64,000 bases of DNA, taken from assembly GCF_035917975.1 (NCBI RefSeq), contig NZ_CP109130.1:3286001-3350000 (forward strand), written 5' to 3'. Positions 42,009-57,082 of the stretch are shown here, piece after piece. Numbering within the stretch: position 1 is the stretch's first letter; every line of letters starts with the position of its first letter. The stretch comes from Streptosporangium sp. NBC_01756 (GTDB lineage Bacteria > Actinomycetota > Actinomycetes > Streptosporangiales > Streptosporangiaceae). The position numbers and the translations under genes were made by a program. The notes beneath the pieces are model-generated. The model had not been told where the DNA came from. It did not search any database and was given only the letters and a program-made list of their open reading frames with translations.

Positions 42009-42177
42009 GATCGACGTGGAGGCGGCGGGAAAGCCGTCCAACAGCGTCGCCGGGGTGCGATGGCTCAGCCCCACCAAGGACGTCCGCCGACCTTCGACTG
42101 ACTCCGACCTCGAAGACCTCAGCGGACGCCACACCGCGCGATCCCGATCGCTGACCGTCCAACGCCGCCTGACCGGC

Positions 42178-42212
42178 AGAAGGCCCGATTCCAAATCGAA
42201 ACCGGGCCTTCT
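42178..42212. terminator. Hairpin AGAAGGCCCG/CGGGCCTTCT
   Basis: A 10-bp perfect outer stem with a 15-base interior that can pair further (CGATT/AATCG). It lies between yczE (plus) and the exported-protein gene (minus), and it directly follows copy E of the conserved downstream element when read on the minus strand. Confidence 0.75.
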
Positions 42213-42220
42213 GTCCTGTG

Positions 42221-42271
42221 CAGGTTCACGAATGAGGCCGACCTGGAGCGGGGAGAGAAAGATCGCTTCCC
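42221..42271 (-). repeat. Conserved downstream element, copy E (single box)
   Basis: On the minus strand: GGGAAGCGATC (42261-42271), then CTCCAGGTCGGCCTC and ATTCGTGAACC, then the hairpin at 42178-42212. It is shorter than the other copies and has one GGGAARCGATC box. It lies ~90 bp after the stop of the minus-strand gene 42359-43261. Confidence 0.65.
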
Positions 42272-42358
42272 GGAATTCGCCCGCGAGGGCGACAGCGAGG
42301 CCAGCGGCGGCCTTGGCGGCGGTCACCGTGACGCTGGCGCCAGGACTGCGGCGAAAGG

Positions 42359-43261
42359 TCAGCTGGCGCCTGGAACGGCGGGCTTGTCGTTCGTCCAACC
42401 GGCCCTGAACGTCTGCACGCCGGACTTGCCGAGCAGCGCCTTGCCGCCGACCTTCGTGTCGGTGTACTCGGCCAGCAGCATCATGGCCTCGGTGTCCACC
42501 AGGAGTTGCTGCTTGAGCACCGAGCCCTTGCTGGCGGGGACGGGCAGGGCCAGCTTCCGGCCGGAACGGCCCAGCGGATCCTTGGCGCGGCCGAGGTCGC
42601 TGACGCCCTTGGTCGTCTTCAGCACCTGGTAGGCGGCGGCCCTGACCTTGTCCGGTGCCGGGTTCAGGTACAGCAGCCCGCTCGCCCGCTCGGCCACGTA
42701 CCGGTCGAGGTTGACCAGCCAGTCCTCCTTCCTGGAGTTCGGACTGGTCGACTTGGCCTCCTCCGCAGCCCAGTCGATCCAGGCGTTGACGTCCGCGAGG
42801 AGGTACTTCCTGAGCGCCTCGGCATCCGTGGGCAGCGACTGGAGCTGCTGGTAGGTCAGGTACTTCTCGCCCAGGCGGAACCCGTCAGGCTGTCCCTTGG
42901 CCGGACCGACGAAGCCCTTGTCCGGTTTGACGGACAGGCGGACTTTCATGCCCTCCGTTCGGTAGTCCCACGTGGTCGGCGAACCGTCGGCGCGCCAGGC
43001 CGCCTCGTCCTTAGCGGTCGCGGGCTTGGCGCCCAGCTTCCGGAAGCCGGACCAGCTCTTGCCCTTGAGCGACGACCACTCGGTGCTGACGCTGCGCTCG
43101 GTCAGGTAGTAGCCGCTGCCGACCGGGTGGGGATGGGTCGTGGTGAAGGTCGTCTCGACCCGCCAGTACGCCCCCTTCGGCGCGTCGGCGGACGCGGGAA
43201 CGGCGGCCGTACCGGCGAAGATCAGTCCAGCGGTAACGGCAACGGCAAGGGTGAATCTCAT
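42359..43261 (-). CDS. Exported protein related to CU044_5270 family
   Basis: 300 residues with a signal peptide (RFTLAVAVTAGLIFAGTAAV, cleaved after ASA). The mature part shares KDEAAWRADGSPTTW with the upstream gene product (QDEAAWRADGSPTSW) and the same overall order, so the two are paralogs; here the membrane anchor is replaced by a signal peptide. It starts at ATG 43261, overlapping the previous stop by four bases. Third gene of an ECF sigma factor operon. Function unknown; probably an external partner of the signalling system. Confidence 0.78.
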   Translation of the reverse strand: MRFTLAVAVTAGLIFAGTAAVPASADAPKGAYWRVETTFTTTHPHPVGSGYYLTERSVSTEWSSLKGKSWSGFRKLGAKPATAKDEAAWRADGSPTTWDYRTEGMKVRLSVKPDKGFVGPAKGQPDGFRLGEKYLTYQQLQSLPTDAEALRKYLLADVNAWIDWAAEEAKSTSPNSRKEDWLVNLDRYVAERASGLLYLNPAPDKVRAAAYQVLKTTKGVSDLGRAKDPLGRSGRKLALPVPASKGSVLKQQLLVDTEAMMLLAEYTDTKVGGKALLGKSGVQTFRAGWTNDKPAVPGAS

Positions 43262-44298
43262 TTCTTCTCCTTCAACGGGTTGTCGTCCGCCCAGCGGCTG
43301 TCCTGGATCGAGGTGTACGTCAGGAGCAGGCCGTCCGCGGCGGAACGGGTCTCGATGGAAAGCGGTCTGCCGGAGGCGGGGTCGATCACCAGCCGGGTCC
43401 TGGTCGCCCCCGCGTAGTTCGGTGGGGCGAACTCCCCGGACTCGTACTCGACCGCCTGCCCGGCACGGCCCAGCGCGTCGGTCACCTGCCCGACGGCGGT
43501 GACCCCGGGCATCGAGGCGAGCAGCCGGTAGGCGGCGGCCCTGGTCTCGCTCGTCACCGGCGCGAAGACCAGCAGCCGCGCCGCGGTGTCGATGGTCGTG
43601 CGGTCGTCGGCGTCGAAGAGCGCCTTGAGCCCCTCGGGGGTGTCGGGCACCTCGCTCATCTTGGTCAGCGGCTTGCCCGCCATGAGGATGCGGAAGTCCC
43701 AGTCCTCGGTCGACCAGGTCCGCTGCTCGTCAGGCTCAGCCCGTAGGGCACCGGAGTGTCCCTTCTCTGTGGGCTTGTCATATGTCCATGACGTCGGTGA
43801 ACCGTCGGCGCGCCAGGCCGCCTCGTCCTGGGGCGTCGCGGGCTTGATCCCCTGAGGGGTCTGGCGGTACCAGGTGCGTCCTTCGAGATCCGCGGGGAGC
43901 CAGATCTCGATCGACTCGCTCTCGCGCAGCACGTATCGGCCGCCGGGCTCGTGGAACTGCATGCCGTGGACCTCCGTGCTGCCCCACCACGCGCCCTCGT
44001 CGGGCATCGAGGCCACCGAGGCCGCCGCGACCAGCAGGAACCGCTTGCCGTCCGCCTGAGCGACCGTGCCAGAGGTGGGAGGCGCCGTGGGAAGCACCGT
44101 CGGCGCGATCACGAAGGCCGCCGCGGCCGCGACCCCCGCCAGGCCGAGCCCCAACGAGCCCCACCTGACGGCTCTGCGGCTCTGCCGTACCCGCTCCTGA
44201 GCGAACGCGGCAGCCAGCCGCTCGCGCCCGGCCCGCTCGACTTCGGGCGACAGCGACGGCGCGGGCAGCAGCTCCCGCACCGCCCGGTAATCATCCAT
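43258..44298 (-). CDS. CU044_5270-type membrane-anchored protein, putative anti-sigma factor
   Basis: 346 residues from ATG 44298 (GGAGG seven bases upstream). The N-terminal ~55 residues are cytoplasmic (YRAVRELLPAPSLSPEVERA), followed by one membrane helix (LGLGLAGVAAAAAFVIAPTV) and an external domain with the DEAAWRADGSPT motif. This layout and the overlap with the sigma factor gene are those of membrane anti-sigma regulators, although no zinc-binding HxxxCxxC motif is seen. The start lies eight bases inside the sigma gene. Confidence 0.78.
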   Translation of the reverse strand: MDDYRAVRELLPAPSLSPEVERAGRERLAAAFAQERVRQSRRAVRWGSLGLGLAGVAAAAAFVIAPTVLPTAPPTSGTVAQADGKRFLLVAAASVASMPDEGAWWGSTEVHGMQFHEPGGRYVLRESESIEIWLPADLEGRTWYRQTPQGIKPATPQDEAAWRADGSPTSWTYDKPTEKGHSGALRAEPDEQRTWSTEDWDFRILMAGKPLTKMSEVPDTPEGLKALFDADDRTTIDTAARLLVFAPVTSETRAAAYRLLASMPGVTAVGQVTDALGRAGQAVEYESGEFAPPNYAGATRTRLVIDPASGRPLSIETRSAADGLLLTYTSIQDSRWADDNPLKEKK

Positions 44299-44908
44299 CG
44301 GTGCCTCCATGCAAGGGGTTGATGCCGCCCAGGGCGGCACGGAGCTTCCTGCGCACCCGCGACAGGCGGGATCCGACGGTGCCGTACGGGATGTCCAGCG
44401 CCTTGGCCACCTCTTCATGACTCAGCTCGCCCAGCGCGCTCAGCAGCAGCACGTCCCTGTCGCCGTCGGGCAGGGCGCGCAGCTCGGCCGCGAGCCGCCC
44501 CTGTGCGCTCGCGGCGTCGATGCGGGTGACCACGCGTTCCTCGTGGCTGTGCTCCGCGCCGTGCTGCACGGTGGCGCTGCGCTGCAGAGCAGCCAGCCGC
44601 CTGGTCTCGGTACGCCGGTGCAGCGAGATCAGGTTGGTGGCGAAGCCGTACAGCCACGGACGGACCTCACCGCGCTCGGGATCGAACGTCTCGCGCTTCC
44701 TGAACGCGGCGAGGAAAACCTCCGCGGTGAGATCGTCGGCGGCCTGCCGGTCGAGCCGCCGTCCCAGGTACGCGTGGATCTCGCTCACATACCGGTCATA
44801 GATCTCCCCGAACCGCTCGGGTCTTCGGCGCGACAACGCCAGCAGGGCCGCGTCGCTGATCGCCTCCGTTGGATCGGTGAGATCCGGAGCGGTCATATTG
44901 GCAGTCAC
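44291..44908 (-). CDS. ECF RNA polymerase sigma factor
   Basis: 205 residues with region 2 (FGEIYDRYVSEIHAYLGRRL, ADDLTAEVFLAAF and RPWLYGFATNLI) and region 4 (LPDGDRDVLLLSALGELSHEEVAKALDIP cut as LPDGDRDVLLLSAL and SHEEVAKALDIPYGTVGSRL). GTG 44908 or ATG 44896 may start it; AAGGGG lies just upstream. It leads an operon of three overlapping genes with two related surface proteins, suggesting an envelope-signal sigma system. Confidence 0.92.
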   Translation of the reverse strand: MTANMTAPDLTDPTEAISDAALLALSRRRPERFGEIYDRYVSEIHAYLGRRLDRQAADDLTAEVFLAAFRKRETFDPERGEVRPWLYGFATNLISLHRRTETRRLAALQRSATVQHGAEHSHEERVVTRIDAASAQGRLAAELRALPDGDRDVLLLSALGELSHEEVAKALDIPYGTVGSRLSRVRRKLRAALGGINPLHGGTDG

Positions 44909-45012
44909 ACCCCTTACTCAACCGATGGGGCATTCTGCTTTCACACCGTCGTGGGGACACCATTCTCGGATCTCCCTCACCCTGCAGATGAGGGAGCTCG
45001 CCAGGTGCGCTG

Positions 45013-45320
45013 TCAGCTTGTCGCGGAGGTGATCCGGTAGGCGCGGATCACGGTCTGCTCGACGGCGTTGCCGGACAGGTCGGTCGACTTGGCTCGCAGC
45101 GACACGAACCCGTCGCCGTTCGGGTGCCGCAGCACGACCTCCGAATGCCGGACCTCGGCCTTCGCCCAGGTGGCCCCGTCGTCGTAGGAGACCTCCACGG
45201 ACAGGTCCCGCGGGCGGCCCGCCGCCCTGCCAGGCAGCGGATGCACGCTGACCGGCACAGTGAAGGAACGACCGGCCGGTGCGGTGTTCCGCGCGCCTGC
45301 TCCGCCACCTGGGTCAACAG
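45013..45320 (-). pseudogene. C-terminal remnant of an S8 (subtilisin-like) peptidase
   Basis: One minus-strand frame reads NTAPAGRSFTVPVSV, LSVEVSYDDGATW and VSLRAKSTDLSGNAVEQT, then VIRAYRI and stops at 45013. This is the C-terminal beta-domain commonly found after the catalytic domain of actinomycete S8 peptidases. No catalytic part exists upstream; 45320-45513 holds nothing recognisable. Confidence 0.65.
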
Positions 45321-45513
45321 GCCGTCGCGGTCGGGCCGAGCCGAGTGATGCCCGCGTCGTCCAGGACGGCGGTATCCACCTGCCCTACGGCAGTCGCGCG
45401 GTGAAGCCGCTCTGCCCGCCGGATACCACGATCGCCGGATGCCGTCAGGTGCCTTGAATTCGTCCGATGCTCCTGGATGGCGCCGAAGCGATGGATCGCA
45501 TCTTCGGTTCAGG

Positions 45514-45972
45514 TCAGTGATCTCTGAGCCAGGATTCCAGGGTGTTCAGCTCGCGCAGTGGGAAGGCCTGGTCTCTCCACTGCCGGGCGTAATCCTCCTC
45601 CCCCATCTCGGAGAGCAGCCGCCTGACTGATCGAACCACCGCTCTCACGAGAGGACCCGTCTCGCTCAGGAGCGTGAACGACTCCCGTCCCGCCTCGTCC
45701 GGTTCCGGCCTCATATGGTCCCGGAAAGTGAGAATGCGCAGCCGTACCACATCACCCTCATGCGTGAAGATCCATCGGTACTCCGTGGGCTCCCCATCCC
45801 AGGAGAAGCGGAAATCATCCCCCTGAGTGACCCGCACCAGGCTGTACAGAAGATCCCGGAGAGCGTCAGTCACATAGGAGACGACCATCCGGACTTCGCG
45901 GTCCTCATGGCCGATAGTGACGATGGCCCATCCATGCTCCGGCGCTCCGTAGGAGAACTCGATTCTCGACAT
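45514..45972 (-). CDS. Hypothetical protein, possible immunity-type
   Basis: 152 residues, acidic, no signal peptide or membrane segment (MSRIEFSYGAPEHGWAIVTI, LLYSLVRVTQGDDFRFSWDG). Two-layer alpha/beta composition and small single-gene placement among relics resemble orphan immunity proteins of polymorphic toxin systems, but no named family is certain. Confidence 0.6.
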   Translation of the reverse strand: MSRIEFSYGAPEHGWAIVTIGHEDREVRMVVSYVTDALRDLLYSLVRVTQGDDFRFSWDGEPTEYRWIFTHEGDVVRLRILTFRDHMRPEPDEAGRESFTLLSETGPLVRAVVRSVRRLLSEMGEEDYARQWRDQAFPLRELNTLESWLRDH

Positions 45973-46019
45973 GGTGGTTCATCGTCGCACCCGAGCCCAC
46001 AGTCACTCAGCAATGCAAA

Positions 46020-46049
46020 TGGCCGCTACCAATCTCTTGATAGCGGCCA
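46020..46049 (-). terminator. Intrinsic terminator after copy A
   Basis: TGGCCGCTATCA-AGAGAT-TGGTAGCGGCCA on the minus strand (12-bp stem with one mismatch), followed by TTTGC. It terminates minus-strand transcription coming from merR through copy A. Confidence 0.85.
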
Positions 46050-46057
46050 TCATCCTG

Positions 46058-46139
46058 GGTGGGGAGTTCACGAGTGCAGTTGAGCTTGGAGAATGCGAGG
46101 CCTTGAAGATCGTTTCCCAGTGGGGAGTGATCGTTTCCC
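46058..46139 (-). repeat. Conserved downstream element, copy A (twin box)
   Basis: On the minus strand: GGGAAACGATC at 46129-46139 and again at 46108-46118 (21-bp period), 29-base spacer, then ACTCGTGAACTCCCCACC at 46058-46075, then the terminator. It follows the stop of merR by ~70 bp. Confidence 0.75.
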
Positions 46140-46209
46140 GCAGAGGCTGTGGCCGGAGATCGGAGGGAGGCCGGACTACCGTTGACAGCCCGGCGAGCGT
46201 CGGCGTCCC

Positions 46210-46758
46210 TCACTCTGCCGGGAGTGCCCGTCGCAGCGGCTCGTCCGGCAGCGCCGTGCGGTCGGTACCGGTGGTGGTGCCGAGGTCCTGAACGTCCGGC
46301 CCGGTCGAGCCTCCGTACGTGGCGATCTTGTATTCGACCGCTGTGAGGGAAAGGGTCAGCTCACGGATCCGGCGGCGGATGGTGTCGCGATGTTCGACCA
46401 GCACATCGAGCCGCTCGGGCACCGTGTGCGCTCCGGAGTCGACGAGCGAGATGTAGTGCTGCAGGTCACGCATCGGCATACCGGACAGCCGCATCCGGGT
46501 GAGGAACACCAGGCGCCGAACCGCTTCGGCGTCGTAGACGCGATGACCATTACCGTCGCGGGCCACCTCGACCAGCCCGGCCCGCTCGTAGTAGCGCAGC
46601 GTGTGAGGCGAGATGTCGAGGAGGTCGGCAACCTCGGCGATCGTCATCGTCTCGGGCAGATCGGCCAGGTCGGCGAGGCGGTAGATCGCCTCGACCGACA
46701 GCGGACCGTCGTCCCCAAGCGCTTCGAGCGCCTTGGTCATCAGATCGTCGGTGGCCAT
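46210..46758 (-). CDS. MerR-family transcriptional regulator
   Basis: 182 residues. The MerR helix-turn-helix and wing (MTIAEVADLLDISPHTLRYY, ERAGLVEVARDGNGHRVYDA) start only at about residue 37, after an extra N-terminal helix pair (TKALEALGDDGPLSVEAIYR). No C-terminal cysteine cluster, so it is not a metal sensor. It starts 10 bp after the SDR stop in the same operon. A perfect 16-bp palindrome in the promoter of that operon (47647-47662) is its probable operator; the closest analogues regulate reductases of organic compounds. Confidence 0.88.
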   Translation of the reverse strand: MATDDLMTKALEALGDDGPLSVEAIYRLADLADLPETMTIAEVADLLDISPHTLRYYERAGLVEVARDGNGHRVYDAEAVRRLVFLTRMRLSGMPMRDLQHYISLVDSGAHTVPERLDVLVEHRDTIRRRIRELTLSLTAVEYKIATYGGSTGPDVQDLGTTTGTDRTALPDEPLRRALPAE

Positions 46759-46768
46759 GACCACGAGC

Positions 46769-47629
46769 CTAGATGGGTCGTACCGATGCGGAGACACCCT
46801 CGAAGTCGGCGCTGCGGGCGGTCTCGGCCCACTGCTCGACCTCGTCCAGGCCGCGCCGGTAGGCGCGCGAGATACGCTCGACCGCCTCGCGCCCGAGCGG
46901 CAGCCGCAGCGGCACCTCGTCGCCGTGCGCGAGGGACACGATGATCTCGGCCGCCCGCACCGGGTCACCTTCCTGGCGGCCGTCGGTCCCGGCCATGTCC
47001 GCACGGACGTTGGCGAGCAGGTCACGATAGGTCGCGGACGGCTCGGCGAACTCGAGCACGTCGCCCCCGTTGAAGCCGGTCCTGAACCGGCTGGGCTCGA
47101 CGAGCATCACCCGGATCCCGAACGGCGCGACCTCCCCGGCCAGGGCCTCGGACCAGCCTTCGAGGGCGAACTTCGACGCGGAGTACGCCGACACGCCGGG
47201 GAACGACGTCCGCCCACCCTGGCTGCTCATCTGCACGATCGTCCCGGTGCCCCGCTCACGCATCGTGGGCAGCGCCGCCCGGACGAGCGCGGCGGGGCCG
47301 AACAGGTGCAGATCCATCAACTCGCGCAACTGCGCGTCGCTGACCTCCTCGACCGCTCCGACCACGGCCCGGCCCGCGTTGTTGACCAGCACATCGAGCT
47401 GACCGAAGCGGTCGAGGGTGTCGCGCACGAGGTCCGCGGCCGCGGCGATGTCCCGGGCATCGAACTTCGCGATCAGGCAGTCGTCCGGGTACTTGGCCTC
47501 CAGATCGGCCACACTCTCGGGCCGGCGCACCGCCGCCACCACGTGGTCGCCCGCCGCGAGCGCCGACTCCGCCAGTGCGCGCCCGAAACCGCGGGACGCG
47601 CCGGTGATGATCCAGGTCTGTGTCGTCAT
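46769..47629 (-). CDS. Short-chain dehydrogenase/reductase
   Basis: Classical SDR of 286 residues: WIITGASRGFGRALAE (TGxxxGxG), NNAG in DVLVNNAGRAVVG, and catalytic YxxxK in SAYSASKFALEGW with the upstream Ser. The ATG at 47629 is used; upstream in-frame codons belong to the repeated DNA around 47.7-47.9 kb. First gene of a two-gene operon with merR. The substrate is unknown. Confidence 0.92.
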   Translation of the reverse strand: MTTQTWIITGASRGFGRALAESALAAGDHVVAAVRRPESVADLEAKYPDDCLIAKFDARDIAAAADLVRDTLDRFGQLDVLVNNAGRAVVGAVEEVSDAQLRELMDLHLFGPAALVRAALPTMRERGTGTIVQMSSQGGRTSFPGVSAYSASKFALEGWSEALAGEVAPFGIRVMLVEPSRFRTGFNGGDVLEFAEPSATYRDLLANVRADMAGTDGRQEGDPVRAAEIIVSLAHGDEVPLRLPLGREAVERISRAYRRGLDEVEQWAETARSADFEGVSASVRPI

Positions 47630-47646
47630 GACGGGGACGCTATGCC

Positions 47647-47662
47647 TTCGAGCGCGCTCGAA
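47647..47662 (-). promoter_or_regulatory. MerR-type operator
   Basis: TTCGAGCGCGCTCGAA, a perfect 16-bp palindrome, lies between a TTGCGT -35-like and a CATAGC -10-like sequence on the minus strand, 18 bp before the SDR start. MerR regulators bind in exactly this spacer position. Confidence 0.7.
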
Positions 47663-47721
47663 CGCAAAACCGACGTGACCACCAAAACGGAAGATCGTGG
47701 CCGGAAGCGCGAACGTGGACC

Positions 47722-47888
47722 TCGACCAGCGGCTTGACATCACCCGGACTTCCCGGACGCCTGCTCCGCGACTCCCACACCAGGACGAACCCGAGTCGGA
47801 AACCCCTGAAACGACAAGATCCCGCCTGATCGCGATGATCGGACGGGATCCCGTCAACTTCAGTCCGGCCGTTTCAAGAACGGCCCCT
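47722..47888 (-). repeat. Dispersed ~170-bp repeat with terminators, copy 1
   Basis: Nearly the same as 56915-57085. It contains two hairpins on either strand: GATCCCG/CGGGATC (47818-47850) and GGCCGTT/AACGGCC (47867-47885). It follows copy B of the conserved downstream element on the minus strand, so it terminates transcription from the small gene at 48155. Confidence 0.85.
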
Positions 47889-48155
47889 GGTGGGGTGTTC
47901 ACGAGTAGGTCTGACCTGGGGCACTGGAGATGCCTCGAAGATCGCTTCCCGAGATGGCCATGATCGTTTCCCGGCCGAGCCCCCGAGGATTCGGCGTGCC
48001 GCCTCGGGCATACGGACCGTTGTGTACGGATGTGGTTGCTCCAGCCACTCGCTGGTCAGCCTTGCGCCTGCGGTCTGGACGATGACCGCGAGCATGGCGG
48101 CTCGCCGGTCGTCGTCCTCGTCATGCTCCTCGAACTCGATGAAGAAGTCCGTCAT
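47874..48155 (-). CDS. Small hypothetical acidic protein
   Basis: Starts MTDFFIEFEEHDEDDDRRAA and continues through TSEWLEQPHPYTTVRMPEAA, about 55 residues that look genuine. The rest of the 93-residue frame is translated from copy B. A second copy of the 3' part at 55386-55446 reads EWLEQPHPYTTVRMPDAAR and stops at TGA exactly where this copy has CGA, so the original product was probably about 55 residues and this gene has lost its stop. Function unknown. Confidence 0.5.
   Translation of the reverse strand: MTDFFIEFEEHDEDDDRRAAMLAVIVQTAGARLTSEWLEQPHPYTTVRMPEAARRILGGSAGKRSWPSREAIFEASPVPQVRPTREHPTRGRS
47889..47972 (-). repeat. Conserved downstream element, copy B (twin box)
   Basis: GGGAAACGATC (47962-47972), GGGAAGCGATC (47940-47950), 22-bp period, a spacer including CCAGGTCAGACCT, then ACTCGTGAACACCCCACC (47889-47906). 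It joins directly to the dispersed repeat and its terminators. Confidence 0.8.
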
Positions 48156-48247
48156 CGCCTGCGGTCGCGGCCACGGTCGATGCCGGCATGGTCTTCCGGG
48201 CGCCGTGATGGTGTGCGCCATCGCGGCGGTGGTCCGGGCGCTGCGTG

Positions 48248-49399
48248 TCAGTTGAGCTCGCCGGGATGGATGACGACCTTGGTCCAGCCGAGATCCCTCC
48301 GGTCGAAGTGCTCGTAGCCGTCCGGTGCGTCGTCCAGGTTCAGTTCGTGCGAGACGACCCAGGACGGCCGGGCCTTCCCTTCGTGGATGAGCGTGCGGAG
48401 CTGCCGGTTGTAGCGCTTCACGTTGCACTGGCCATTGCCGATCATCTGGCCCTTGAACCAGAACATCCCGTAGTCGAAGGCGATCTCGCCCTGCTTGAAG
48501 AGATCGTCCGGGCTGCCGGGGTCCGACGGGATGAAGACGCCGACGACGCCGATGGTCCCGGTGAACTTGACCGATTTGACGAGGTCGTTGAGCGTCATGT
48601 TGGGGTGTTCGTGCCCCTGTGGGTCATGGGCCTGGTAGCCCACGCACTCGCAGCCCCGGTCGGCGCCCAGGCCCTTGGTGAGTTCCATGACCTGATCGAC
48701 CGGTGGCGCCTGGGAGTCGTCGATCGCGATCGCGCCGATCTCCTCGGCTTTGGCGAGCCGGTCGGGGTGGCGGTCGACGACCATCACCTTGCTCGCGCTC
48801 TTGAGCGTGGCGGAGTAGGCGGCCATCAGCCCGACGGGTCCCGCTCCGTAGATCACGACCGAGTCACCCGCCTCCACCTGGGCGAGTTGAGTCGCGTGCC
48901 AGCCGGTCGGCCAGATGTCGGCGAGCATCACGTAGTCGTTCTGCTTCTCCTTTGCGTCGTCCGGGAGGACGAGGCAGTTGAAGTCGCCGTACGGCACGCG
49001 CAACAACTCGGCCTGGCCGCCGTTGTAGGGCCCCATGTCCGCGAAGCCGTAGGCCGCCCCGGCCATGCCCGGCTCGGGATTGGTGGTGAGGCAGTAGGCC
49101 GTCAGGCCCTTTTCGCAGTTCATACAGAAGCCGCACGAGATGTTGAACGGGATGCAGACCACGTCGCCGACGCGGACGCGGTCGACGGCCGATCCGACCT
49201 CGACCACTTCGCCGAGGTTCTCGTGACCGAGGACGCGGCCCGTCTCGAAGTCGGTCCGGCCTTCGTACATGTGCAGGTCCGACCCGCAGATGTTGGTCGT
49301 GGTGACCCGAACCAGGACATCGGTGGGCCGCTCTATGCGCGCGTCCGGGACTTCCTCGACGTTGACCTGTCGAGGTCCGTTGTACACGATCGCTTTCAT
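48248..49399 (-). CDS. Zinc-dependent alcohol dehydrogenase, formaldehyde dehydrogenase-like
   Basis: MDR-family enzyme of 383 residues. The catalytic zinc site has NICGSDLHMYEGRT and GHENLGEVVEVG; the structural zinc site has CGFCMNCEKGLTAYC; the cofactor site has VVIYGAGPVGLMAA. The long insert (MGPYNGGQAELLRVPYGDFN) and DPQGHEH match glutathione-independent formaldehyde dehydrogenases (Pseudomonas PFDH type). GAGGAA precedes the ATG. It lies downstream of a stress/redox run on the same strand after ~200 bp, fitting aldehyde detoxification. Confidence 0.88.
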   Translation of the reverse strand: MKAIVYNGPRQVNVEEVPDARIERPTDVLVRVTTTNICGSDLHMYEGRTDFETGRVLGHENLGEVVEVGSAVDRVRVGDVVCIPFNISCGFCMNCEKGLTAYCLTTNPEPGMAGAAYGFADMGPYNGGQAELLRVPYGDFNCLVLPDDAKEKQNDYVMLADIWPTGWHATQLAQVEAGDSVVIYGAGPVGLMAAYSATLKSASKVMVVDRHPDRLAKAEEIGAIAIDDSQAPPVDQVMELTKGLGADRGCECVGYQAHDPQGHEHPNMTLNDLVKSVKFTGTIGVVGVFIPSDPGSPDDLFKQGEIAFDYGMFWFKGQMIGNGQCNVKRYNRQLRTLIHEGKARPSWVVSHELNLDDAPDGYEHFDRRDLGWTKVVIHPGELN

Positions 49400-49603
49400 G
49401 ATTTCCTCGCATGCGGTTGATTGCGAAGGATCGCCTTACCCGTCGTCGACGGGGCGAGAGGTTGTACGCCGTACAGCAGGTCAAGGGTTCATTCCTCCTT
49501 CCTTGCTCGCCGCGACCGCGCCCCTGGGAGGGCTCGGCGCCGGATTCACCGGGCGTCCGGGAAGGACTGTTCAGAGCTGATCGCCGAGGCCGTCCCGACC
49601 GCC

Positions 49604-50053
49604 TCAGAGCAGCAGGTCGAAGACACGTATCGTGCGCTCCCACTGCTCGGTCGCGGGGTTCTTCACCTCCGGATCCACGATCTTGAAAGCCTGAGCCAGT
49701 GCCGCTGACAGACCGCCGACGATCTCGGGCAGGCGGCCGACGGTCTCCTCGCCGACCGACAGGTCGAGCGGAGGCAGCGTGGCGAGCTGCTCCAGGATGG
49801 GTTTCAGCTCGATGTCCTCATCGAGGAGGCGGAACCGGTGGATGCTCTCCTGGAGGCCCTTGGTGACGGGTAAATCCCAAGGTTCGATGATGTCGCGACG
49901 GTTCGCCTTGGCGTGAGCCTGGCCGATCACCAGAAGGTCGTAGAGCTTGTCGTTCACGAAGTCGCCGTAGCGCCGGAGGTCGTCCTTGTCGACATCGACA
50001 CCTGCGGCGCTGCGGAAGAAGCGTTCGAATCTCGGCACCGCCATGACAGCCAT
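49604..50053 (-). CDS. DUF1931 histone-fold-like protein
   Basis: 149 residues matching the DUF1931 family: RFERFFRSAAGVDVDKDDLR, LYDLLVIGQAHAKANRRDII, WDLPVTKGLQESIHRFRLLD. Crystal structures of thermophile members show two histone folds in one chain, like a fused archaeal histone pair. Whether it binds DNA in bacteria is unsettled. GGAG lies six bases before the ATG. It follows the TrxR-like gene by 27 bp, so it belongs to the same operon. Confidence 0.85.
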   Translation of the reverse strand: MAVMAVPRFERFFRSAAGVDVDKDDLRRYGDFVNDKLYDLLVIGQAHAKANRRDIIEPWDLPVTKGLQESIHRFRLLDEDIELKPILEQLATLPPLDLSVGEETVGRLPEIVGGLSAALAQAFKIVDPEVKNPATEQWERTIRVFDLLL

Positions 50054-50080
50054 GGAGGTCTCCTTCCTTCCGGCCCGGAG

Positions 50081-51751
50081 TCACTCTCCGGCCTGGAGGT
50101 AGTCGTGGATCAGCCGTACGGCCATGGCGCCTTCACCGACCGCCGCGGCCACTCGCTTGATCGACCCGCTCCGCACGTCCCCGGCCGCGAACACGCCCGC
50201 CCTGCTCGTCTCCAGCGGAAACGGCCGGCCGGCGGAGTCGGGCGTGTCTTCCTTGCCGGACCGGGTGGCGTCCGCACCCGTCAGGATGTAGCCCCGCGGG
50301 TCGAGCGCGATCTCGTCGGCCAACCAGGCGGTGTACGGCTCCGCGCCGATGAAGATGAACATCGCGCGGGCCTCGATCGTGGAACGCTCTCCGGTGACGT
50401 TGTCCTCGGCGACGACCGCGGCGAGCGTCTCTTCCCCCATCAGCTCCCGGACCTCGGTGTTCAGCATGATCTGGATCCGGGGGTGCCGTTCGATCTCGAC
50501 GGCCAGATAGCGGGACATGTTCCTGGACAGCGCGTCCTCCCGCACGAGCAGCCGGACGCAGGCGGCGTGCCGGGCCAGGAACAGGGCGGCCTGGCCGGCC
50601 GAGTTGCCTCCGCCCACGACGACGATCGGGTCCCGCTCGCACATCTGGGCTTCGAACATGGTCGCCGCGTAGTAGACGCTCGTGGGCTCGAACCGTTCCA
50701 GATTCCGCACGTCGAGCCTCCGGTAGCGGACGCCGGTCGCGATGATCAGGGTGCGCGCGTGGATCGTGCCGCCCTCCCCCACGGTGACGATGTGATCGCC
50801 CGCGTCCAGGTGCAGTCCGCATGCCTGTGCGGGGACGCAGAAACCCGCGCCGAACTTGTCGGCCTGGATCGCCGCCCGCTCCGCCAGTTCGCCGCCGGAG
50901 ATCCCGGACGGGAAGCCGAGGTAGTTCTCGATCCGTGAGGAGGTACCCGCCTGGCCGCCCGTGGCGACATCGTCCAGGACCATCGTCGCGAGGCCCTCCG
51001 ACGCCCCGTAGACCGCCGCCGCCAGCCCCGCCGGCCCGGCACCGATGACGAGCAGGTCGCACCGGTTCTCCTGTACCCGTGGTGCGAGGAGCCCGACCGC
51101 CCGGGCCAGCTCCGCGTTGCTCGGGTTACGGAGCACCGTCTCGCCACGCCAGATCACGACCGGGGTCTCCTCCGGGGTGAGGCCCATGCTCCGCAGGAAC
51201 CGCTCCGCCTCCTCGTCCTGCTCCAGGTCGATCCACCGGTGCGGCAGCCGGTTGCGTGCCGCGAACTCCCGCAGCCGCCGGGAGTCGGCCGAGAAGCGGG
51301 AGCCGATGATACGGAAGCCCGCCCCCAGTCCGATGAGCATCGAGCGGCGGATGAGGTAGGCCCGCAGGATGAGGTCACCGAGCGCCGGATCCCCGGCGAC
51401 CAGGCGGCGGAGCGCGTCCGCCGGCACGGCGAGGACCTCGCCGTCCTCGGCCACCACGCCGGTGACGAAGCCCACCTGGCCGGTGAGCATGTTGAGCTCT
51501 CCCAGGAACCGGCCTGCCCCGTGGACGCCGATCACCTCATCGTCCGCTCCGAATCCCTCGACCGTCGCCACCTTGCCGGCCAGGATCGCGAAGAACTCGG
51601 TGCACGGAAGACCTTCGGCGTACAGGACCTCGTCCTGGCGGACGCGGCGCCGCTCGCCGTACGGGGCCAGCGCCTGGAGCTGCGCGTCGCTCAGCCGCGG
51701 GTAGGCCCCCTGCGGGTCCGGCGTCTCGCAAAGCTCAGGCGGCCAGCGCAT
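50081..51751 (-). CDS. Cyclic-nucleotide-binding / thioredoxin-fold / TrxR-like flavoprotein fusion without CxxC
   Basis: Three parts in 556 residues. 1: a cNMP-binding domain (~25-140; FFAILAGKVATVEG and GRFLGELNMLTGQ). 2: a thioredoxin-fold linker (~145-225; RFSADSRRLREFAARNRLP and ETPVVIWRG) lacking cysteines. 3: a thioredoxin-reductase-like FAD/NADPH module (GAGPAGLAAAVYGASEGL; VVVGGGNSAGQAALFLA; FAAGDVR). The redox CxxC expected just before the NADPH motif is replaced by YYAATMFEAQ, so it cannot pass electrons through the usual disulfide. It overlaps the thioredoxin gene by 17 bp. Confidence 0.87.
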   Translation of the reverse strand: MRWPPELCETPDPQGAYPRLSDAQLQALAPYGERRRVRQDEVLYAEGLPCTEFFAILAGKVATVEGFGADDEVIGVHGAGRFLGELNMLTGQVGFVTGVVAEDGEVLAVPADALRRLVAGDPALGDLILRAYLIRRSMLIGLGAGFRIIGSRFSADSRRLREFAARNRLPHRWIDLEQDEEAERFLRSMGLTPEETPVVIWRGETVLRNPSNAELARAVGLLAPRVQENRCDLLVIGAGPAGLAAAVYGASEGLATMVLDDVATGGQAGTSSRIENYLGFPSGISGGELAERAAIQADKFGAGFCVPAQACGLHLDAGDHIVTVGEGGTIHARTLIIATGVRYRRLDVRNLERFEPTSVYYAATMFEAQMCERDPIVVVGGGNSAGQAALFLARHAACVRLLVREDALSRNMSRYLAVEIERHPRIQIMLNTEVRELMGEETLAAVVAEDNVTGERSTIEARAMFIFIGAEPYTAWLADEIALDPRGYILTGADATRSGKEDTPDSAGRPFPLETSRAGVFAAGDVRSGSIKRVAAAVGEGAMAVRLIHDYLQAGE

Positions 51752-52178
51752 CGTCTATCCATTCGCGGAGGGCGGGAGCCGGCGCCGCGCCCGACCGCCG
51801 GGTGAGGACCCGGCCCTGATCGATCACGACAAGGGTCGGGATGGCCTGTACGGTGAAGCGCTCCGAGAGCCGGGGCGCTTCGTCCACGTTCACCTTCACC
51901 AGCTTCAGGCGACCGGCCAGATCGGCTGCGACCTGCTCCAGCGCCGGGCTGACCATGCGGCACGGGCCGCACCAAGGTGCCCAGAAGTCGACGACCACCG
52001 GGATCCGGGCCGCCTCGACGACCTCGCTGAAGTCGTCGTCCCCGGCCTCGGTGACCCAGGGAAGCGGCTGGTGGCAGTGGCCGCACCGCGGGATTCCCGA
52101 GGCGGCCCTGGGCAGCCGGTTCTTCCGTCCGCATCTGGAGCATTGGACGACGCCCGCGTCCTTGGTCTGTGACCGCAT
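51735..52178 (-). CDS. trxC: Thioredoxin 2-like protein with N-terminal zinc ribbon
   Basis: 147 residues. The N-terminal ~40 residues have CSRCGRKNRLP and CGHCHQPLP, the zinc-binding part of Trx2. The thioredoxin domain has the active site WAPWCGPCRM and cis-Pro in AIPTLVVI. ATG 52178 is seven bases after GGAGG. It is first in a minus-strand run with the TrxR-like fusion and DUF1931 gene, an oxidative-stress-type operon. In other bacteria Trx2 is oxidative-stress induced and zinc binding tunes its redox state. Confidence 0.9.
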   Translation of the reverse strand: MRSQTKDAGVVQCSRCGRKNRLPRAASGIPRCGHCHQPLPWVTEAGDDDFSEVVEAARIPVVVDFWAPWCGPCRMVSPALEQVAADLAGRLKLVKVNVDEAPRLSERFTVQAIPTLVVIDQGRVLTRRSGAAPAPALREWIDDALAA

Positions 52179-52429
52179 GGTCAGACCTCCGGATTCCCCT
52201 ACTTCATCGAGGGTGTGCCGCCGGTCAGTGCGACATGGATGACCGCTCCGTCGAGGGCACCGCCGACGACTGGTTCGCCGGTCTCGGCGGTCTCTCGGTG
52301 ACGAGCCGCTGCTCAGCCTCCTCCACATCCCCACGCTATCTCCGCCGCCAAAGGCACTTTGCAGCACCCCCAACGCTGACCAGCGGCTATCCCCGCGCGT
52401 GATCCCTTTCTGCCGTATTCGTGTGTCCT

Positions 52430-52810
52430 GAACGTGAAGGAGAGTTCGATGTAGGCGAATGATCTGGAGCGATGCTGCTCGGACGATGAAGGTCGTGGCC
52501 CTTCGGAGTCGCCCTGCGGAGGGAGGCTTCAAACCGCCCCATGCCGCGTTGGCTGAAGACCGTCGTGGTGAGCGATGAGGAAAAGGCGCCCGTGAAGCGC
52601 CAGGTGGGGGCCGGGAAGACGAACGCGAGCGAACCGCTGATGACGTGTCGAAAGCAGAACGGATGACATCGAAACCGGGAGTGAACACGAGTCCGGGATG
52701 GAGCCTGGCGGGAGTCCGCTTATTGGCCAGGCGGTGCCCGGCATGGAGGTGGCGCGAGCCCGGTCTGCGGTGTTCGCCCGGCAGTGCGGACGAGCCCTGC
52801 CCCGGGGCGG
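52430..52810 (+). mobile_element. 5' fragment of a group II intron
   Basis: The plus strand contains domain I-like sequence: GAACGCGAGCGAACCGCTGA, GACGTGTCGAAAGC, ATCGAAACCGGGAG and GGCGGGAGTCCGCTTATTGG, in order over ~200 bp (about 52615-52735). GTGTGTCC near 52430 would fit the 5' GUGYG end. There is no reverse-transcriptase frame, domain V or 3' end before the next gene stop at 52814, so it is a truncated relic. The part 52179-52430 holds nothing recognisable apart from the trxC promoter. Confidence 0.6.
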
Positions 52811-52813
52811 GAG

Positions 52814-53923
52814 CTACGCGTCCTTCTCGTCCCGCCAGCCGCCGGGTTCGGGATGGTAGCCGTAAGCGGCGGCCCGCACCGTGTCCTCGTCCTCCAGCCC
52901 GGAGCCGATCGCGCCGCCGACGGTGGCCAGCGAGCTGATGATCCAGGCCAGTATCAGGTAGTCGGTGAAATCGACCGGCCGCTGCAGGGTCTGTTCCAGC
53001 ACGGATGTGTCGATCAGCAGCGCCGCGGCGAGTATCGTTCCGGCGAACAGCACCAGGTAGGACACCGCGGTGGCCAGGATGAGGGTGAGGACCGTGCCCA
53101 GGTTGAACAGCCGGGCCAGCTCAGCCGGTGTCTCCCGGTCCGGTTTCTCCCATAGGTCATGCGCAACGATCAGCCAGGTCACCAGCGCGGTCAGCCCGAG
53201 AAGCATGATCACGGCTAGGCGAAGTCCGCCGAGCGCATCGCCCATCTGCCAGATGGTGTTGGTGGTGAGCGCGAACGCGGCCGTGCCAAAGGCGCCGACC
53301 AGCAGTTTGGACAGGCCCAGCAGAGCGCGCCCAGGGCGGTTGGCCCGGACCATTCCGGTCACCAGCCGCACCCGGCCGATCAGCCGCGAGGCGACGTAGC
53401 CCAGTTCCCCGGCATCAGTCTCGCCGACCACCCGGCGAATGGCGGCAACCTGGCCGGCCAGCTCGGCCGGTGCCCAGCCGACCAGCGGCACCCGCTCCTC
53501 GGAAGCGTCAGTGAGTAGCCGGCCCACGAGACCCGGAACGGCTGCGCGGACCGCTCGCAGCTGGCGCAACCCCAGCGCGGGCAAGGACACCACCGCGACC
53601 CGGCGCCGGGTGGACGTCTGCGCGACCAGCGGCACCCGCTCGGTGTGCAGCGGCAGGTCGGTCAGGCAGATCGCGACGTCCCACCGAGCGTCGGCGCGCC
53701 GGCGGGCAAGATCGTCGAGTAGCGCCTCAACGCCGCCGTCGCGGCGCGGAGCCACTTCGCCCCAGCCTTCCCGGACGGTCCACCGCACGTCCGCGTCCAC
53801 CTGCTCGGCGAGCCGGTCGGCCAGCTCGGTGATGAGCCGCGCAACCACCTGGGCCGGGTAGTCCGGCGGGGTCGCCACGAGTCCGACGACGATCTCCCGC
53901 CGACGCTGATCACTGGTGGCCAT
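52814..53923 (-). CDS. Hypothetical membrane protein
   Basis: 369 residues. The N-terminal ~200 residues are cytoplasmic and alpha/beta in character (REIVVGLVATPPDYPAQVVA, WDVAICLTDLPLHTE), and four membrane segments follow (e.g. LAVIMLLGLTALVTWLIVAH, GTVLTLILATAVSYLVLFAG, LILAWIISSLATVGGAIGSG). The soluble part carries the theme ICLTDLP and could bind a nucleotide, but no named family is recognised. Monocistronic, with the intron relic after its stop. Confidence 0.75.
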   Translation of the reverse strand: MATSDQRRREIVVGLVATPPDYPAQVVARLITELADRLAEQVDADVRWTVREGWGEVAPRRDGGVEALLDDLARRRADARWDVAICLTDLPLHTERVPLVAQTSTRRRVAVVSLPALGLRQLRAVRAAVPGLVGRLLTDASEERVPLVGWAPAELAGQVAAIRRVVGETDAGELGYVASRLIGRVRLVTGMVRANRPGRALLGLSKLLVGAFGTAAFALTTNTIWQMGDALGGLRLAVIMLLGLTALVTWLIVAHDLWEKPDRETPAELARLFNLGTVLTLILATAVSYLVLFAGTILAAALLIDTSVLEQTLQRPVDFTDYLILAWIISSLATVGGAIGSGLEDEDTVRAAAYGYHPEPGGWRDEKDA

Positions 53924-54089
53924 TGGCGCTCCTCGCCGGTAGCCGGGCGAAATCCCAGGACCGACTACCCAAAGTAGCGTGATAGGTGCTTAGTGTATCG
54001 AAGCATGCTCTTATGGCCGTCAAGTAGCCGGCCATGTGCCTCGTCGTCACTGCCGGGCCGCGAAACGCCAGTCCGGCTGCCTTGTCGTC

Positions 54090-54345
54090 GCCGTCCAGGC
54101 GGACGCCGACCCGAATTCCGGAACGGACCCTCAGAGACGGCCCCTCCATCACGCGGTCGAGGAAGACTCACCGAAAGTGGTCACGGAACTGGCCCGGCGT
54201 GTCGACGACATCGACGCCGAACAGGAGGGTCGTACCGCACTCTGGCTCGCCGTCTTTCAACGACCGCCCCGCCCTGGTCGCCGCCGACCGCGCAACATCA
54301 CGACGACCGCTGGGTTTCGCACGCCCACCGGCCGGTCCCACACGC
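54090..54345 (+). pseudogene. Ankyrin-repeat protein remnant
   Basis: Frame 1 reads ADADPNSG, PLHHAVEEDSPKVVTELARR and DIDAEQEGRTALWLAVF (to ~54258); the next frame continues FNDRPALVAADRATSRRPLG. One frameshift therefore breaks ankyrin repeats of the kind PLHxA..GRTALxxAV. There is no start or stop that restores a product. Confidence 0.7.
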
Positions 54346-54440
54346 GCTCACAGCGGTCCACCACCAGCGCCCTCCGCCAGGGCCACCGCACGAGCCGAGA
54401 TCAGCCCGCCCAGCGGCCACGGAACCTCGGAAACGAGGAA

Positions 54441-54470
54441 ATCCCGCCCGATCAAGCGATCGGACGGGAT
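54441..54470 (-). terminator. Strong hairpin after copy C
   Basis: ATCCCGCCCGATC-AAGC-GATCGGACGGGAT, a 13-bp stem with one mismatch. It ends minus-strand transcription that passes through copy C. Confidence 0.8.
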
Positions 54471-54509
54471 CTCGTCAACTGTTCCTGAGCTAACTCAAGA
54501 ACAGCCCTT

Positions 54510-54593
54510 GGTGGGGTGTCCACGAGTAGGCGTGGCCTGCACCGAGTCGGGGATGGTGATGACCGCTTCCCGCAACATAACTGATCGTTTCCC
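54510..54593 (-). repeat. Conserved downstream element, copy C (twin box)
   Basis: GGGAAACGATC (54583-54593), GGGAAGCGGTC (54561-54571), 22-bp period, a spacer, ACTCGTGGACACCCCACC (54510-54527), then the hairpin at 54441-54470. It follows the stop of the minus-strand membrane-protein gene by ~85 bp. Confidence 0.8.
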
Positions 54594-54677
54594 AGCTGTT
54601 CGGCGCCTTCAGGTAGTGAAAGCGCTCTGCGCGCGGCACACATCGGCGTGGAACCGGGAGGTCGTGCATCGTGGGGT

Positions 54678-55202
54678 TCAGGGCCCCTCGGTCCAGATGT
54701 ACCAAGGACCCTTAAAATGCTCGTACCAGACCTCGTCCGGGCCCGGTACCCGATCCGGGATGTAGGCGAAGCCGTAGCTCTTCCATCCCCAGGTGACCGA
54801 GGTGACCATGAACTGCGTTCCTCCCGGGATCTTCTCCGTGTAGCCCACCCGATACAGGCCCCGCCACCGATCACGGCTATCGTCGTCGTCGCGCACCGAC
54901 CGGGCGTAGCGCTCCAGGCTCGATTCCGACAAGGCGAAGCGCATGTGCAGGGGCGCGTCGACCGTGACCAGCAACACGGTGCCCAGCACCAGTACGAGTG
55001 GGACGAACATCCAGGGCGCCCGCCCTCGCGCGCCTTCACCCAACAGTGCGGACCAGGTGATGGCGAGCACCAGCCAGTACAGCACCAGCAGCAATGCCCC
55101 GAAGGACAGCCCGGGAGTGCTCACCTCAAAGAGCGTCAGGAGCGAGGCGAGTCCGATGGCGCCGGTGAAAAGCAGGGCGAGGGGTTTGCGAGCCAGGCGC
55201 AT
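54678..55202 (-). CDS. Hypothetical membrane protein
   Basis: 174 residues with three hydrophobic helices in the first ~95 residues (ARKPLALLFTGAIGLASLLT; FGALLLVLYWLVLAITW; WMFVPLVLVLGTVLLVTV) and an external C-terminal domain rich in Trp and Tyr (TSVTWGWKSYGFAYIPDRVP). ATG 55202 chosen; the upstream 11 residues are hydrophilic and unlikely. Family unknown. Confidence 0.65.
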   Translation of the reverse strand: MRLARKPLALLFTGAIGLASLLTLFEVSTPGLSFGALLLVLYWLVLAITWSALLGEGARGRAPWMFVPLVLVLGTVLLVTVDAPLHMRFALSESSLERYARSVRDDDDSRDRWRGLYRVGYTEKIPGGTQFMVTSVTWGWKSYGFAYIPDRVPGPDEVWYEHFKGPWYIWTEGP

Positions 55203-55279
55203 GGGGCAATCTTGCCCGGTACCAGAATCAAGCACATCGGTCCCACATCAGTTCCGGGAAGCCAACCCGCGGACCACTC

Positions 55280-55446
55280 GGGGGGCGGTCACAAGTGTGG
55301 TTGAGCAGCGACGATGATGCCCTGGCGAAGATCGCTTCCCAGGATGGTCGTGATCGCTTCCCAGCCGAGCGTTCAGGGGTTCAGCGTGCTGCGTCGGGCA
55401 TGCGGACCGTTGTGTACGGGTGTGGTTGCTCCAGCCACTCGGGTGA
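55280..55446 (-). repeat. Conserved downstream element, copy D, with 3' remnant of a small gene
   Basis: GGGAAGCGATC at 55352-55362 and 55330-55340 (22-bp period), then a diverged ACTTGTGACCGCCCCCC near 55280. Upstream on the same strand (55386-55446) is EWLEQPHPYTTVRMPDAAR followed by a stop, a copy of the 3' part of the gene at 48155. Thus B and D share both the gene end and the element, whereas A, C and E share only the element. Confidence 0.75.
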
Positions 55447-55475: not shown

Positions 55476-55886
55476 TTAAAGGTCTAGAACGTGTGGCCGC
55501 GCGTCAGCGCGGCCGTAGGAGAGGATGCGCCGTAGTCCCTGCCGCAGTTGCTCGACAGATTCTTGGTCGACATCGAGAGTCACCTCGACTTCGGGTTCGG
55601 CCAGACCAAGTGTTTCGATGCCGTCGGAGTCGAAAACAACGTGCAGCACGTTGTCGCTGAGCCTGATGTCGCGGACGGCGCCATAGGCGGTTCCTTGATT
55701 CGCAGTGACGACGCAGTGGGTGTCCATACCCAGGGCGATGTCTTGGTCGCCAGGTTCATAGGTGCAGCACTGAAAGATCAGCATCATGCCGTCACCGTCC
55801 TGGGTCTCGCTGACCCCGGCGGACAGGCATTCCCCCTCCAGGTCTTCATCGGCTCCGGCGGCTTGGGCCGTGAACATGATCGTCAT
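55476..55886 (-). CDS. Imm10-family immunity protein (orphan)
   Basis: 136 residues from ATG 55886. The pattern LEGECLSAG, MMLIFQCC, GDQDIALGMDTHCVVTANQG and YGAVRDIRLSDNVLHVVF, and then VEQLRQGLRRIL, is that of the Imm10 family found beside polymorphic toxins. No toxin gene lies within the window near it; the neighbours are relics. It may protect against toxins of sibling strains, as orphan immunity genes do. Confidence 0.75.
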   Translation of the reverse strand: MTIMFTAQAAGADEDLEGECLSAGVSETQDGDGMMLIFQCCTYEPGDQDIALGMDTHCVVTANQGTAYGAVRDIRLSDNVLHVVFDSDGIETLGLAEPEVEVTLDVDQESVEQLRQGLRRILSYGRADARPHVLDL

Positions 55887-56159
55887 GGCGGGAAGGGTAG
55901 CGGCAAGCCAGGACAAATCTGCAGGTCGGTAATGAGCCGCGCAATACGCTGTGGCGCGCGGGCAGTGGGGGTTGAAGACTTCGCCCGACTGTCCACAGTG
56001 CCACCCTCACCGTCGCCGTCCGCACCAGCGCGGCACTCGGCGCCATCCGCTTCCAATGCCCGGCAGCAGGCCCCTCCCCGGCGGTCACCTGCACCCCGGC
56101 GACCTCGGCCGCCTCGACAAGTTCCGCCAGGACCTGGCCTACCTCAGCTCTTCGTGGCG

Positions 56160-56914: not shown

Positions 56915-57082
56915 CCTCGACCAGCGGCCTGACACCACCCGAGCATTCCAAGACACCCACTCCACAGGACCCAAACCAGGACGAACCCGAGTCGGAAACC
57001 CCGAAACGACAAGATCCCGCCTGATCGCGATGATCAGACGGGATCCCGCCAACTTCAGTCCAGCCGTTTCAAGAACGGCCCC
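56915..57082 (-). repeat. Dispersed ~170-bp repeat with terminators, copy 2
   Basis: Matches 47722-47888 closely. It lies immediately after the 3' end of tRNA-Ala and supplies its terminator hairpins (GATCCCG/CGGGATC at 57013-57045 and GCCGTT/AACGGC at ~57063-57079). Confidence 0.85.

Follow-up and report, generated by a model that had tools for sequence, protein, structure and literature searches.

Conserved ends of a probable site-specific, cargo-carrying transposon family that forms cassette arrays at tRNA-Ala genes in actinobacteria

Tn7-like transposons are characterised by a TnsB/TniA-type transposase, a TnsC ATPase and TniQ, and the actinomycete integrative and conjugative elements (AICEs) by a tyrosine integrase and the duplication of a 3′ tRNA segment, with tRNA function kept. 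One study (PMC10293859) describes two systems that come closer to the one considered here: Tn6022, a Tn7-like transposon that targets comM with TnsF, an inactivated tyrosine-recombinase protein, TniQ being found with TnsF; and Tsy, a non-Tn7 transposon with a TnsF-like protein and a helix-turn-helix (HTH) gene, which moves through circles via active tyrosine recombinases. Here we analyse 64,000 nucleotides (nt) of Streptosporangium sp. NBC_01756 (contig NZ_CP109130.1, positions 3,286,001 to 3,350,000; hereafter the window, whose coordinates are used unless stated), in which a short conserved element recurs five times. Judged from its sequence, the element very probably forms the right-hand terminus of a DNA transposon that carries cargo and inserts site-specifically. 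The family is apparently undescribed; it would insert one way at the 3′ end of tRNA-Ala genes in actinobacteria and form cassette arrays. A literature search within open-licence PMC found no title or abstract opening that describes the element, which may have a name among catalogued insertion sequences (IS).

A first-pass annotation had reported five copies on one strand, and direct search of the window bore this out. Four are twin-box copies on the minus strand, at 55282..55362, 54510..54593, 47889..47972 and 46058..46139 (67.6, 67.3, 76.6 and 67.9 bits with R1, a sequence-only profile of the right end built from these four and a copy at genome position 1787835); the fifth, at 42224..42276 on the same strand, is degenerate and has one box only (26.5 bits). 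The aligned copies read GGGAARCGATC, 10-11 bases, a second GGGAARCGATC, about 32 bases and then ACTCGTGAACACCCC or a variant. A single 11-base box at two mismatches is at chance level (48 found against 46 expected), but the arrangement is above it: the 18-base tip motif at up to three mismatches has 3 matches against 0.07 expected from shuffling, and the exact twin box has 3 matches in the 9.0-Mb genome, every one inside the window, with none for the reversed control. With R1 the four twin-box window copies reach E values of 1.5e-20 to 1.2e-17 and the 1787835 copy 7.6e-17, all being profile members; outside the profile, the copy at 42224 scores 6e-5 and one at genome position 3432727 scores 3.4e-6. 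Genome-wide (9.0 Mb, E < 1e-4), seven copies are found, the five of the window plus 1787835, which lies near a tRNA-Ala(GGC), and 3432727; the earlier statement that no copy occurs outside 42-57 kb is thus right for the window and wrong for the genome. The 22-bp box period and the fixed spacer of about 30 bases proposed from the window extend to 162 full-length copies from many genomes (period 22 in 153 of 160 scored, box-to-tip spacer 32-33 in 153 of 160), many of which were retrieved by a pattern permitting only periods of 21-23. That the arrangement might be absent from all other genomes was also checked, and it is not: R1 has matches in every one of the 16 genomes of the genus, the top match of each having an E value of 1.9e-11 or lower. 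The exact twin-box form occurs in at least 119 stretches among named genomes, with Streptosporangium, Nonomuraea, Planomonospora, Microtetraspora, Sphaerisporangium, Actinomadura, Streptomyces and Kitasatospora among the matches listed, one stretch listed (L263) being a simple repeat and some lacking the tip. Viral and phage collections gave three viral matches, none a full element, and no phage match.

The limits of the complete unit are visible in two contigs that it fills from end to end. Contig L280 (Microtetraspora sp. NBRC 13810, 5,839 bp) starts GGGCCGTTCTTGAAACGG, a left end, and ends GTGAACACCCCA, a right end; contig L254 (Streptosporangium pseudovulgare, 6,650 bp) starts GGGCTGTTCTTGAGATGG and ends GTGAACACCCC, again a left and a right end. 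In other contigs (L240 and L242, and L239 and L326) different DNA follows the right ends of these two. Contigs that stop at both ends are as expected when a mobile unit present in several copies is assembled. The two ends of the unit mirror each other as imperfect inverted repeats (left GGGCCGTTCTTGAG; right, as reverse complement, GGGGTGTTCACGAGT), terminal inverted repeats being a trait of DDE transposons. In the right end two 11-bp boxes stand as direct repeats with a period of 22 bp, and the left end has a single inverted box near nt 74: TCGTTTC(C/A), which is part of the box in inverted form, lies at nt 73-75 in 54 of 69 left ends. Three Streptomyces plasmids hold units with both ends, of 6,051, 10,733 and 5,487 bp, flanked by GGCTTC, CGTTGA and TGCAA, and in S. 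pseudovulgare one junction pair has CTGTG and another ACCAC, the latter at a tRNA-Ala(TGC)-like 3′ fragment. Once joined, the flanks align with a paralogous site of S. pseudovulgare itself that is uninterrupted (87% over 203 nt) and with tRNA-Ala(TGC)-type sites, likewise uninterrupted, in G003, G002 and G001, that of G003 being an intact tRNA-Ala(TGC) gene. A second accretion hotspot is hinted at in several genomes of the genus by clustered tRNA-Ala(TGC) 3′ fragments of 33-59 nt.

The sequences behind the elements fall into four types, A, B, C and D, and the same types are found behind the tRNA itself, different genomes showing different types behind the same tRNA. Types A and B resemble one family and were modelled jointly as A/B. 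There are 84 distinct A/B left ends, 47 directly after a twin-box right end, 26 after a tRNA-Ala-type 3′ end and 11 elsewhere, the start of contig L280 included. The first-pass annotation had described the copies as usually ending in a terminator, four of the five being followed by a hairpin. A hairpin does follow most copies, and a recognised left-end type lies behind four of those in the window (none behind the copy at 55282); to go by its sequence, the "terminator" is the left end of the neighbouring, older insertion. The 49 array units run, from left to right, from A/B to twin box (22), C to twin box (9), an unknown left end to twin box (8), D to F2 (5), C to F3 (4) and C to F2 (1), F2 and F3 being other right ends, which contain tRNA 3′ fragments; the arrays have ten of these, with fragments of 29-45 nt, all but one measuring 43-45 nt. 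Every A/B left end with a right end in view thus finishes in a twin box (22 of 22 units). Pairing A/B with twin box, C with F3 and D with F2 fits 31 of the 41 units of known left end against a shuffled mean of 18.7 (0 of 20,000 as high), in a statistic that counts only left ends with a right end in view and to which related genomes contribute non-independently. At the same tRNA we also see two other element families, II (left D, right F2) and III (left C, right F3), for example in L112 and L122. Degenerate integrases of a single clan (nine loci, 38-91% pairwise identity) lie on the strand opposite to the tRNA or element in 9 of 9 loci and, by eye, after a type C left end in five; we assign this clan to another element family.

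The link to tRNA-Ala and the fixed orientation hold beyond the window. Among 40 loci (L070-L109), ten have a tRNA, which in eight is a tRNA-Ala (CGC or GGC) with the element downstream on the same strand; the others are a Val/Gly/Cys cluster on the same strand (L095) and a tRNA-Ser on the other strand (L086). Six of 59 further loci, a scan that takes in three viral loci and L263, have a tRNA: a tRNA-Ala(CGC), upstream and on the same strand, in five and a tRNA-Arg on the other strand in the sixth. The tRNA-Ala(CGC) of the window was located in all 16 genomes of the genus, and behind it 39 of 39 elements of at least 15 bits are on the tRNA strand (11 of the 16 stretches contain any), which is the Tn7-like trait of insertion in one orientation at one chromosomal site beside a conserved gene. 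It is because the insertion orientation is fixed that the copies follow minus-strand genes, as had been noticed in the window; this is not universal, several cassettes having genes on the opposite strand. In L085 a degenerate right end (19 bits, 3750-3815, minus strand) lies about 165 bp from an intact one (3981-4060, plus strand), and no other clear minus-strand partner was observed.

Three genes are common to L280 and L254; they lie at the left end and are directed toward it: ORF1 (595 and 591 amino acids (aa), respectively), ORF2 (307 and 308 aa) and ORF3 (163 aa in L280), the last with a coiled coil and a winged helix by eye and weak Pfam matches only. In independent elements of both chromosomes and plasmids, ORF1 and ORF2 are neighbours next to the left end, and the plasmid pairs are annotated "hypothetical protein". 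A small HTH regulator gene adjoins ORF2 in plasmid units (L331 5684-6001, L332 5494-5811, L333 9104-9421, L334 7809-8126). In an 11-row alignment ORF1 has invariant D304 (DRAYTDQ) and E510 (RANxEGxNGR) and a near-invariant first D, D204, lost in L333. The ORF1 profile reaches distant proteins, among them a relative, L346, with matches to IS1182 (E 1e-4, NCBIfam) and DDE_Tnp_1_6 (E 0.0015), both below cut-off. We read ORF1 as a remote DDE transposase of about 600 aa, going by these motifs. ORF1 or pieces of it are present in 14 of the 16 genus genomes (E 1e-5), seven near full length and one of these with a stop codon, and its profile matches 7 of 396 genomes of a phylum-wide draw at 1e-10. ORF2 of L280 matches a PHROG integrase family (E 5e-8) and the ORF2 profile has a weak match to Cre (E 0.17); judged by eye, the Arg and His motifs normally present are altered, and Tyr, the presumed nucleophile, is Trp in 2 of 10 homologues. 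ORF2 is probably tyrosine-recombinase-like and catalytically dead.

The neighbourhood of a tRNA invites another explanation, that the element is the attR half-site of a tyrosine-integrase island at tRNA-Ala, with the twin boxes as arm sites and the tip as half of a core site. The tRNA target, the direct 11-bp boxes, which are like arm sites, and the inverted half-site in the left end all suit such an island, as do the two other families that leave tRNA 3′ fragments at the same tRNA, the integrase relics in the arrays and the few array units with matching short repeats. The twin-box ends, however, hold no tRNA fragment beyond a few bases, so that the duplicated 3′ segment expected as attL and attR is absent from them, although the F2 and F3 ends do carry fragments; five copies elsewhere have 5-6-bp repeats around them; and the two exact-end contigs, the three complete plasmid units and the 4 kb after the 84 left ends contain no match to an integrase profile. 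We consider an integrase island unlikely, and this reading, which the inverted half of the tip in the left end had suggested, was dropped on account of the exact-end contigs and the short repeats elsewhere. It is slightly less probable again that ORF2 is the catalyst and ORF1 an accessory protein. ORF2 does resemble integrases, and Tsy is a known tyrosine-recombinase transposon (PMC10293859), but the nucleophile replaced in some homologues and the changed look of the Arg and His motifs speak against a working ORF2, and the short flanking repeats fit a DDE enzyme. Some recombinases do lie near a twin box or a left-end-like sequence. In Nonomuraea sp. G32 (L243 4597-5854) a truncated twin box is found 200 bp before an intact 341-aa tyrosine recombinase, which was rejected as the enzyme of the element because three relatives' loci are without the box. 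An intact-looking tyrosine integrase follows closely behind a twin-box copy and a tRNA 3′ fragment in G004 (L207 3121-4233, minus strand), and on the S. anulatus plasmid NZ_CP109253.1 a site-specific integrase and a winged-helix gene (L362 6507-7484) lie about 2 kb after a left-end-like sequence, where no right end was identified.

Rows of cassettes on one strand, each with one conserved site and some common to different arrays, also recall integrons, in which the element would be attC-like and the cassettes excised and reinserted by an integrase in trans. This seems very improbable to us, and it was dropped once conserved left ends (84) had been found. The element is without the hairpin structure of an attC site, folding of six element sequences being no better than shuffles (z -1.1 to 1.1), and a PF00589 search of eight genomes, which used no IntI-specific model, showed no tyrosine recombinase consistently beside the elements among the matches listed, with one near the G004 copy. 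We give next to no credence to a 3′-UTR or small RNA element with its own terminator, one of three possibilities raised by the first-pass annotation. The position after genes and before hairpins would suit it, but folding and Rfam, in which no family matched, lend it no support, and the hairpin is part of the neighbouring left end. Another of the three, a protein-binding array at gene ends, survives in part: the boxes may be protein-binding sites, but they are located at a transposon end and not at gene ends. Of the three it is the last, the end of a small mobile unit, that stands up.

Several observations weigh against the transposon reading and have to be set beside it. For ten left ends the preceding sequence is neither a tRNA nor a right end, and nine type C units finish in a twin box, perhaps as hybrids or deletions. 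The flanking repeats are 5 bp in some of the five copies and 6 in others, the S. pseudovulgare contig ends were paired by the repeat itself, the alignments to uninterrupted sites show a gap of one to four bases at the junction, and a search for an unoccupied plasmid found none. In the arrays identical 5-mers stand at both junctions in 4 of 22 A/B units (two in G007, one each in G013 and G015), the first four bases being common to both in 5 of 22. The matching units of G013 and G015 retain a near full-length ORF1, and a third such unit with its right end in view (G002) has ACCAG and ACAAG; in the window itself the flanks of units 1, 3 and 4 differ (ACCAA/ACCAG, ACCAG/ACCCA and ACCAG/CCGAG). So few matching array flanks fit later change at the tRNA end or deletions, and are not what fresh insertion gives; they lower our confidence slightly. 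The DDE reading of ORF1 relies on motifs and one weak intermediate, as ORF1 has no match among Pfam, NCBIfam, PHROG and PDB profiles. ORF2 of L331 has no PHROG match, ORF2 of L280 and L331 no Pfam match, and hhalign of the ORF2 profile against integrases gave no match.

Read as successive transposon insertions, the window is ordered outward from its tRNA-Ala(CGC), the insertion target (57083..57159, minus strand, ARAGORN), with features on the minus strand unless stated; the four twin-box copies, from 55282..55362 to 46058..46139, are the right ends of units 1 to 4 in that order. Directly after the tRNA 3′ CCA comes the type A left end of unit 1 (56973..57082, inner limit approximate; left-end profile 96 bits). 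This unit retains a relic of the transposase-like ORF1 (56020..56178; tblastn down to E 3e-9, profile E 6.4e-7) on the plus strand, opposite to the tRNA as in intact elements, and carries a gene for an Imm10-family immunity protein (55476..55916; PF15588, E 1.4e-10). The cargo of unit 2 (54678..55235) is a cassette that recurs in L303 and L310, with 727-738 nt of homology up to the right end. Unit 3 begins with a type B left end (54405..54509, inner limit approximate; 82 bits), and the end of its cassette is also found in Streptosporangium amethystogenes (L246; 4.08 kb at 96% up to the tip, 4 kb compared). A Group II intron D1-D4-2 match (94 bits, 52488-52605, plus strand) lies between cargo genes. 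Unit 4 has a type A left end identified by the left-end profile (47780..47887), and 47801-47893 is 95% identical to the tRNA-Ala flank at 56996-57088; by Pfam its cargo is a MerR regulator and a short-chain dehydrogenase. Behind its right end is a type C-like left end (46000..46048, limits approximate; C profile 28 bits). Unit 5, closed by the degenerate right end, holds an ECF sigma factor (Pfam) and neighbours, and a type D left end of a different element family (42165..42215, limits approximate; D profile 42 bits) lies behind this oldest copy. Downstream of the sigma factor the adjacent minus-strand genes 42359-43261 and 43258-44418 resemble tandem paralogues; they have common repeats (42968-43028 and 43786-43846, 87%) and no Pfam match.

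Some cassettes turn up in more than one array. A comparison of 206 distinct element copies shows 21 cassettes that stand upstream of more than one copy (47 pairs); their homology comes within 30 nt of the tip, and the 60 bases behind the tip differ in 44 of the 47 pairs. A left boundary drawn from homology alone is misleading. The commonest Pfam families in 137 array ORFs are sigma factors, TetR, Clp protease, glyoxalase and MerR, with no recombinase among the 25 of 108 listed, and the plasmid unit L332 carries barstar, SMI1/KNR4, DUF4265 and Fic genes. Most cassettes are seen without transposition genes. Such cassettes would be either deletion derivatives or units mobilised in trans. That they recur at several places speaks for some mobilisation in trans, without proving it.

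We propose that ORF1 inserts the unit after the acceptor stem of tRNA-Ala, with the right end distal to the tRNA, and that insertion would duplicate about 5 bp, corresponding to the discriminator, CCA and one further base. The left end would bring a new hairpin behind the tRNA, a potential tRNA terminator, and because this hairpin is supplied the tRNA would stay intact and could be hit again. Older units would be pushed away from the tRNA, and repeated insertion together with loss of transposition genes would give rise to the cassette arrays. The direct boxes and the inverted left box are probably binding sites for transposition proteins, and ORF2 may be a target selector, by analogy with TnsF of Tn6022. 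Targeting may read the T-arm DNA: in the insertions of L331, L332 and L334, AATCC lies 23-24 nt upstream of a common anchor, close to its position in tRNA-Ala. Eight further non-tRNA left ends were compared (14 in all, less these three, two contig starts and one doubtful match); L333 has AATCC and L210 TATCC at that place. Since six of the eight have neither, T-arm targeting is only a lead.

A mobile element is thereby proposed behind a cassette-rich hotspot that is present in the genus (all 16 genomes having the element) and in many relatives, and it would explain why genes for immunity, sigma factors and regulators, unrelated to one another, build up next to one tRNA. It is possible, though we rate it at somewhat under an even chance, that the Tn7 lifestyle was here invented independently, by an IS1182-like DDE transposase and a dead tyrosine recombinase that reads the T-arm of tRNA-Ala, with homing in one orientation and trans mobilisation of transposase-less cassettes, the tRNA serving across actinobacterial families as an integron-like depot of immunity and regulatory genes. 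The family would provide a non-Tn7 case of a DDE-type transposase travelling with a tyrosine-recombinase-like partner, so that it could be tested beyond Tn7 whether dead recombinases are recruited as target selectors. If active, it would also offer a small tRNA-homing insertion system for actinomycetes.

How the family relates to described systems can be stated feature by feature. Like the integron arrays, it forms rows of cassettes that each close with a conserved site; unlike them, the site is unstructured and each unit has two conserved ends. It shares with the AICEs the targeting of a tRNA 3′ end with tRNA function kept, but at most a few bases are duplicated here. A distant kinship of the transposase with the IS1182 family runs through one intermediate, L346, which scores 21 bits against a cut-off of 270; ORF1 itself has no IS1182 match, and the partner proteins, the cargo and the tRNA target set this family apart. 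Families of the Tn7-type transposase, ATPase and TniQ have no Pfam match among the scanned ORFs of L280, L254, L331, L332 and L334. Compared with Tsy as described (PMC10293859), the family differs in its DDE-type gene and short flanking repeats. With Tn6022 it shares a transposase paired with an inactivated tyrosine-recombinase-domain protein and insertion at one conserved gene; the target is here the 3′ end of tRNA-Ala, and there comM, with TniQ and TnsF (PMC10293859). The tests thus place this family outside Tn7, IS1182 and the integrase islands, and its apparent way of working is like that of Tn7 and Tn6022.

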